In this document: piece after piece, positions 61,456 to 61,580 of the stretch
Layout: each line of letters begins with the position of its first letter
How positions within the stretch are numbered: position 1 is the first letter of the stretch
IMG/VR virus record: IMGVR_UViG_3300018416_002791
Location: 1-62,261 of that record
Length of the DNA: 62,261 bases
Reading direction: 5' to 3' (one strand)
From: a virus
Translations under genes and position numbers: made by a program
The notes under the pieces: generated by a model
Database searches by the model: none
Told to the model about the DNA's origin: nothing
The model's input: the letters and a program-made list of their open reading frames with translations, nothing else

Positions 61456-61580
61456 AGGATTGTTACAGCAAGACATCTTAATACTCTTGAAAAGTAAAGG
61501 ACCGGTTCGACTCCGGAGCCCTGTTTACAGGGGTTTAGTGTAACGGTAGCACTCAAAAGAAACTCAATCCTGTTATTTTA
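61456..61580 (+). ncRNA. Y-like RNA unit 5 with circularly permuted tRNA domain
   Basis: Terminal stem AGGATTG (61456-61462) with CAATCCT (61565-61571), TTACAGCAA inside and GTTATTT after. Inside: T-arm CCGG-TTCGACT-CCGG (61502-61516), 3' acceptor AGCCCTG, cap loop TTTA, 5' acceptor CAGGGGT (6 of 7), D-arm AGTG-TAACGGTAG-CACT (61537-61553). CTCTTGA and TCAAAAG (6 of 7) form the anticodon-stem equivalent. Same plan as unit 3. Confidence 0.72.

Follow-up and report, generated by a model that had tools for sequence, protein, structure and literature searches.

Y RNAs of the YrlA type are known in bacteria and phages, those of phages having reportedly been described by Chen in 2014, and RtcB is a partner in Salmonella. 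Circularly permuted tRNA genes occur in algae and archaea and are processed to ordinary tRNAs. According to the excerpted text of PMC8394870, YrlA has D, T and acceptor arms, is bound by Ro, is modified by DusA and TruB, and tethers Ro to PNPase; for Salmonella YrlA, the excerpted text of PMC7790460 suggests competitive inhibition of an anticodon nuclease and reports that the RNA is not cut.

The locus compared here lies on a 62 kb IMG/VR virus contig (IMGVR_UViG_3300018416_002791), which was analysed over its full 62,261 nt (the window). The RNA under study, termed unit 5, starts 2.7 kb past the end of a Ro-like ORF, and we read it, with a probability of about 0.8, as a YrlA-type phage Y RNA with Ro-bound ends and a tRNA-shaped effector body. 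A distance of 4 kb from the Ro-like gene, given in a first-pass annotation of the window, agrees with that from the ORF start (4.1 kb) and not with that from the ORF end (2.7 kb). The features of unit 5 and the tRNA that follows it are listed below with their basis; alignment A1 and covariance model R1 are described further on.

61456..61576, + strand: unit 5, Y RNA-like RNA with permuted tRNA body (model R1)
61456..61462, + strand: 5' strand of the terminal stem, AGGATTG, pairing with 61565-61571 (sequence; covaries in A1)
61464..61471, + strand: UACAGCAA, presumed Ro-side motif (part of the search pattern; also in units without a body)
61482..61496, + strand: anticodon-arm-like hairpin TACT-CTTGAAA-AGTA, would-be anticodon UGA (sequence)
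61502..61516, + strand: T arm, 4 bp CCGG/CCGG, loop TTCGACT (sequence, model R1)
61519..61532, + strand: acceptor-like helix CCCTG-TTTA-CAGGG, 5 bp core, no CCA (sequence)
61538..61552, + strand: D arm GTGT-AACGGTA-GCAC, closest to phage tRNA-Gln 5' halves (sequence)
61565..61576, + strand: 3' strand of the terminal stem, CAATCCT, and GUUAU tail motif (sequence, model R1)
61582..61656, + strand: tRNA-Gly(UCC), 10 nt past the stem of unit 5 (ARAGORN)

The ends named in the first-pass annotation for 61456-61580 (AGGATTG/CAATCCT, UUACAGCAA and GTTATTT) were all found in the sequence, with UUACAGCAA at 61463-61471, CAATCCT at 61565-61571, GUUAUUU at 61572-61578 and a terminal stem of 7 bp. The arms of the body it described are present as well, the hairpin 5' of the T arm having been left out; the supposedly common cap loop TTTA applies to unit 5 (UUUA) and not to unit 3, an upstream relative described below (UUCG). 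Unit 5 is irregular in one acceptor mismatch and in its T stem of 4 bp. It does occupy an ordinary tRNA slot, 10 nt before tRNA-Gly(UCC), and is missed by tRNA finders as anticipated: ARAGORN made no tRNA call, Rfam gave no match at gathering level or at E ≤ 5 with the Rfam tRNA family included, and neither recovered the normal-order cloverleaf that marks a tRNA gene. MFE z-scores were -0.86 for unit 5 and -3.12 for unit 3; thermodynamics alone is no proof.

In the surroundings of unit 5, a tRNA remnant of ~43 nt with acceptor stem, T arm and ACCA, devoid of D and anticodon arms, was recognised by eye at 61408-61450, a tRNA gene at 61323-61404 was called by Rfam and not by ARAGORN, and a tRNA-like stretch at 61755-61827 was called by neither. 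ORFs for an HNH endonuclease and a MORN-repeat protein (60285-60791 and 61835-62059) lie beside or inside the tRNA array. Between Ro gene and array, the segment 59790-60215 holds short ORFs only and several inverted repeats seen by eye, and gave no Rfam match of note.

For a search of IMG/VR, a pattern made up of motif, T loop and D loop, with no stem specified, was used and returned at least 118 stretches. In 122 pattern matches from the loci examined among the matches listed, a terminal stem (score ≥ 6, in the expected place) was present in 109, compared to 10.9% with the downstream sequence shuffled, and wider offsets gave a terminal stem to a few more. As the matches included near-identical contigs, they were reduced to 92 distinct unit sequences and to 70 after clustering, of which 53 entered alignment A1; the remaining 17, namely L002 and 16 mostly longer or unusual sequences, were left out. 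R1 was built from A1 and contains no sequence from the window or from L002. The structure of A1 had 89.6% of its cells paired, compared to 33-42% in slid controls, with 494 two-sided changes compared to 81-160. Helix 1, the terminal stem, had 92.9% of its cells paired and showed two-sided changes at each of its 8 pairs, and helices 4-6 (T arm, capped acceptor, D arm) were 94-99.6% paired, while the anticodon-like hairpin and the closing helix reached 65.2% and 63.5%. The order of elements in the class is terminal stem, UACAGCAA, T arm, capped acceptor stem, U8A9, D arm, closing strand and GUU.

Unit 5 matched R1 along the full model (positions 1-122 of 122) with 73.9 bits (E 1.3e-13) and unit 3 with 77.4 bits, the third-best score in the window being 16.7 bits. 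This confirms that unit 5 belongs to a large RNA class, and its earlier assignment as a permuted tRNA-like RNA of the same class as unit 3 holds. A search for close orthologues of unit 5 gave 0 matches; its own pairs are therefore outside the covariation test, a point against the Y RNA reading. Tandem ordinary tRNAs produce chance look-alikes of up to 34.7 bits (L025 12860-12916), and three tRNA junctions in control contigs, all devoid of a terminal stem, scored 52-61 bits. Since junctions reach 61 bits, an R1 score below ~65 bits is no proof by itself.

Further homologues, whose lack would have refuted the first-pass annotation by its own terms, were found in other phage tRNA clusters. Matches to R1 were obtained in Enterococcus phage A2 (82.9 bits), Mycobacterium phage Archie (76.5 bits), Escherichia phage SUSP1 (76.4 bits), Bacillus phage PJN02 (65.3 and 54.8 bits) and Cronobacter phage S13 (60.3 and 40.7 bits), and the relatives L002 and L011 carry two R1 units each inside tRNA arrays. 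A same-strand tRNA lies within 50 nt of 55 of the 91 distinct units and within 200 nt of 62. Scores of at least 50 bits were reached in 11 of 27 Ro-bearing records, many of which are fragments; KVP40, A511 and LAh_9 were among the records that stayed below this score. Some loci were also noted in their own right. In S13, the permuted units (L149 8947-9070 and 9154-9293) have ACCA in the cap, and annotations of tRNA-Ser and tRNA-OTHER in the record overlap them or lie close by. At L003 869-974, directly after a tRNA-Ser, a unit with UACAGCAA-type ends shows by eye D-like and T arms in normal order, enclosed by a short acceptor-like stem, with no anticodon arm. A skipping-rope RNA (Rfam, 62.4 bits) lies in a tRNA array at L025 11152-11248, with a Ro-like gene adjoining.

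Four further units with the ends of unit 5 lie just upstream of the Ro-like ORF:

56658..56685, + strand: sigma-70-like promoter, 12 of 12, just before unit 1 (consensus match only)
56706..56782, + strand: unit 1, ends as in unit 5, without tRNA body
56791..57031, + strand: unit 2, ends as in unit 5, 241 nt, no tRNA body recognised
57080..57107, + strand: sigma-70-like promoter, 12 of 12, just before unit 3 (consensus match only)
57141..57278, + strand: unit 3, the other unit with a permuted body, located upstream of the Ro-like gene (R1, 77.4 bits)
57283..57333, + strand: unit 4, ends as in unit 5, short
57356..58786, + strand: Ro-like protein gene, DUF2828 + DUF7788 (Pfam; PHROG 850 'RNA-binding protein')

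Pfam TROVE (PF05731) had no match in the window record. The Ro-like protein was modelled with AlphaFold (pLDDT 75.3), and the three PDB matches returned by Foldseek at E ≤ 0.001, as well as the top 10 of VIA-align, were all TROVE/Ro proteins. The model gave Z scores of 17.0 to 9kop, 16.0 to 9l5y, a structure titled as a Thermus phage Ro60, and 14.2 to the Ro autoantigen 1yvr, with 12-16% identity to Ro/TROVE chains in the structural alignments; the first unrelated fold followed at Z 10.1. The gene product is thus predicted to have a Ro fold, composed of a helical ring and a vWA domain.

The link between units and Ro-like gene drawn in the first-pass annotation extends well beyond the window: a Ro-fold DUF2828/DUF7788 protein is encoded in 44 of 47 unit contigs, compared to 3 of 42 tRNA-array controls. 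The former were found by the RNA pattern alone, independently of the Ro gene. Of the 80 loci listed, 48 lay on unit-bearing contigs ≥ 30 kb, and 47 of these were used (L067, which is the same contig as Ro locus L024, was left out), some being near relatives of one another; the controls are 42 contigs, likewise ≥ 30 kb, drawn from the 80 loci listed for a tRNA-junction pattern. In three further records with stem-less pattern matches, a Ro-like gene was absent from two and present in one, which also has an R1 match elsewhere. Eight of the 42 controls scored at least 50 bits with R1, and seven of these were inspected: G080, G088 and G082 look like true units (the first two on fragments of ~50 kb that contain no Ro-like gene), G097, G078 and G076 are tRNA junctions, and G099 has several units beside a TROVE-type Ro. 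The eighth, G091, is Ro-positive. Best unit and Ro gene share a strand in 45 of 45 contigs; they are less than 1 kb apart in 15 and more than 5 kb apart in 23.

Tandem permuted units accompany a TROVE-type Ro in G099 (115178-116995 of a 308 kb virus contig; L290). At ~0.4-1 kb from the Ro gene, these have the same kind of body and different ends, with GGTGGCGTAG and GTTCCCCC in place of UACAGCAA and GUU, which suggests that the unit ends go with the type of Ro. In named phages, the ends were also found without a tRNA body directly beside Ro genes; Listeria phage A511 has three such body-less units just upstream of Ro (L148 6660-6923). For the A511-related phage CKA15, the excerpted text of PMC12282133 reports the Ro-like protein from purified virions. 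The highly transcribed CKA15 RNAs in the same text were considered as candidates for these units and set aside, as the reported loci could not be matched to them. A link to an RNA-repair operon was likewise rejected, since RtcB is absent from the window record and is not enriched in unit contigs (3 of 47, compared to 4 of 42 controls).

We propose that the paired ends and UACAGCAA serve as a handle for the phage's own Ro-ring protein (57356-58786), while the permuted, capped, tRNA-shaped body would be an effector module recognised by tRNA-acting proteins. The Ro ring would thereby be brought to, or kept from, RNA-processing enzymes: the ends would bind Ro, the RNA would act as a tether, and the tRNA-like head would engage a tRNA-acting enzyme, recruiting or blocking it. 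This reading is favoured by the R1 match of unit 5, the covariation and terminal stems of the class, the co-occurrence with the Ro-like gene and its constant strand, the body-less ends beside Ro genes in named phages, the predicted protein fold and the different ends that go with a TROVE-type Ro. Against it speak the acceptor mismatch and 4-bp T stem of unit 5, the Ro-bearing records with no permuted unit at 50 bits, the true-looking units of the Ro-negative G080 and G088, and the lack of RtcB enrichment. As a scan of the unit 5 strand revealed no promoter just upstream, unit 5 is probably made within the transcript of the tRNA array. RNAs of this kind may help phages to handle or protect tRNAs in infection.

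A 7-nt loop in anticodon position, closed by 3 of 3 pairs, was found in 36 of 81 units, where loops of other sizes gave 3-14 of 81 and shuffles 8.6%; these 7-nt loops have U33 in 32 and A37 in 35 of the 36 cases. Joined in normal order, the halves gave ARAGORN tRNA calls in 44 of 53 units, compared to 54 of 265 with mixed halves; in permuted order, as found, there were 0 of 53. Judging from the hairpin and these calls, part of the family amounts to a nearly whole tRNA opened in the anticodon stem. We assign such a hairpin, with the loop CUUGAAA, to unit 5 with moderate confidence: it is reached by 3.8% of linker shuffles, and un-permuting supports it weakly, with 3 of 12 joining variants being called as tRNA-Ser(UGA). 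Of the 9 variants joined for unit 3 none was called as a tRNA, and its hairpin loop has 4 nt only. Two of the units with a TROVE-type Ro seem, by eye, to have the hairpin too. It is tempting to see in this loop a decoy or sensor for anticodon nucleases, which host tRNA-cutting defence enzymes would bind or cut in place of genuine tRNAs, while Ro would keep hold of the RNA or of fragments from it. The frequency of the 7-nt loop with its U33 and A37, the tRNA calls after un-permuting, the location in tRNA arrays and the nuclease competition suggested for Salmonella YrlA in the excerpted text of PMC7790460 agree with such a role. However, over half of the units have no clear anticodon-like hairpin, the loops present show many different anticodons, the hairpin of unit 5 is only moderately beyond chance and that of unit 3 has a 4-nt loop, and the same text reports Salmonella YrlA as not cut; we consider this role rather unlikely.

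The D-arm half of unit 5 comes nearest to phage tRNA-Gln and the remaining half to other tRNAs; in unit 3, too, the halves are akin to different tRNAs. The units may plausibly have been born when the 3' half of a tRNA fused with the 5' half of its neighbour, and the S13 caps with ACCA are what an origin from neighbouring tRNA genes would lead one to expect. A more far-reaching version, with tRNA arrays as nurseries in which adjacent halves fuse to whole permuted tRNAs, complete with anticodon loop, that Ro holds as decoys or sensors against tRNA cutters, is doubtful. The different likenesses of the unit 5 halves would also fit an artefact of a decaying array, with the 3' part of a dead tRNA running into the 5' part of its neighbour, and junctions do yield the T-then-D arm order as weaker matches (L025 12860-12916, G097, G078, G076). 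These junctions have neither the terminal stem nor UACAGCAA, however, whereas unit 5 has both, its ends are those of the Ro-adjacent units, and the body shows covariation in the alignment of 53 units. A chance or decaying tRNA junction was rejected on the terminal stem and the model scores, which makes the artefact very improbable; decay may account for the origin of the body rather than for its present nature. Still harder to credit is a permuted tRNA gene, the RNA being cut at the cap and its ends joined to give a working tRNA. The un-permuted sequences are tRNA-like and the S13 units keep ACCA in the cap, but the caps are mostly 3-7 nt long, with CCA in only 12 of 81 units and not in unit 5, the ends are locked in a conserved stem with a fixed motif common to body-less units, and an RtcB ligase is encoded in only 3 of 47 unit contigs.

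Ro-like proteins were found in 682 of 50,697 phage records. They are thus common in phages, with RNA partners that mostly lack annotation and escape both tRNA finders and Rfam. With R1, the function of phage Ro RNPs becomes testable in cultured phages, e.g. SUSP1 and PJN02, and the hairpin ties together two questions, namely why large phages carry tRNA arrays and how host tRNA-cutting defences are withstood.

With the permuted tRNA genes of algae and archaea, the class has in common that the tRNA 3' half precedes the 5' half; it differs from them in its short cap and in ends that form a Ro-type stem. The Ro-like protein has the predicted fold of the Ro60/Rsr TROVE proteins (PDB 2nvo, 1yvr, 9l5y), although Pfam sees DUF2828 and DUF7788 in it and not TROVE. 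Units 1, 2 and 4, with a terminal stem and motif and no recognised tRNA body, may be comparable to YrlB or Y RNAs without a tRNA domain.

The closest counterpart is YrlA (RF02553). Both have ends paired in a stem, which in YrlA holds the Ro protein, and a tRNA-like domain whose T arm, capped acceptor and D arm are permuted, and both are encoded near Ro, YrlA being reported in phages as well. Judged by this architecture, the class would work like YrlA, as a Ro-binding, tRNA-mimicking Y RNA; of the RNA class deduced in the first-pass annotation from two examples, its reality stands and its novelty does not. Differences remain: the Rfam YrlA gathering cut-off of 69 bits is missed (45.1 bits for the Enterococcus phage A2 unit at full length; 37.0 bits, E 1.6e-5, for unit 3), the ends UACAGCAA/GUU differ from the consensus ends of Rfam YrlA, the units are often kilobases from Ro and in tRNA arrays, and part of them has the anticodon-like hairpin, which is absent from the YrlA description in the excerpted text of PMC8394870. 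We therefore regard the class as a variant of the YrlA kind, parts of which may already be in print. New here are the UACAGCAA/GUU ends tied to a DUF2828-type Ro, the site in tRNA arrays away from Ro, and the hairpin.
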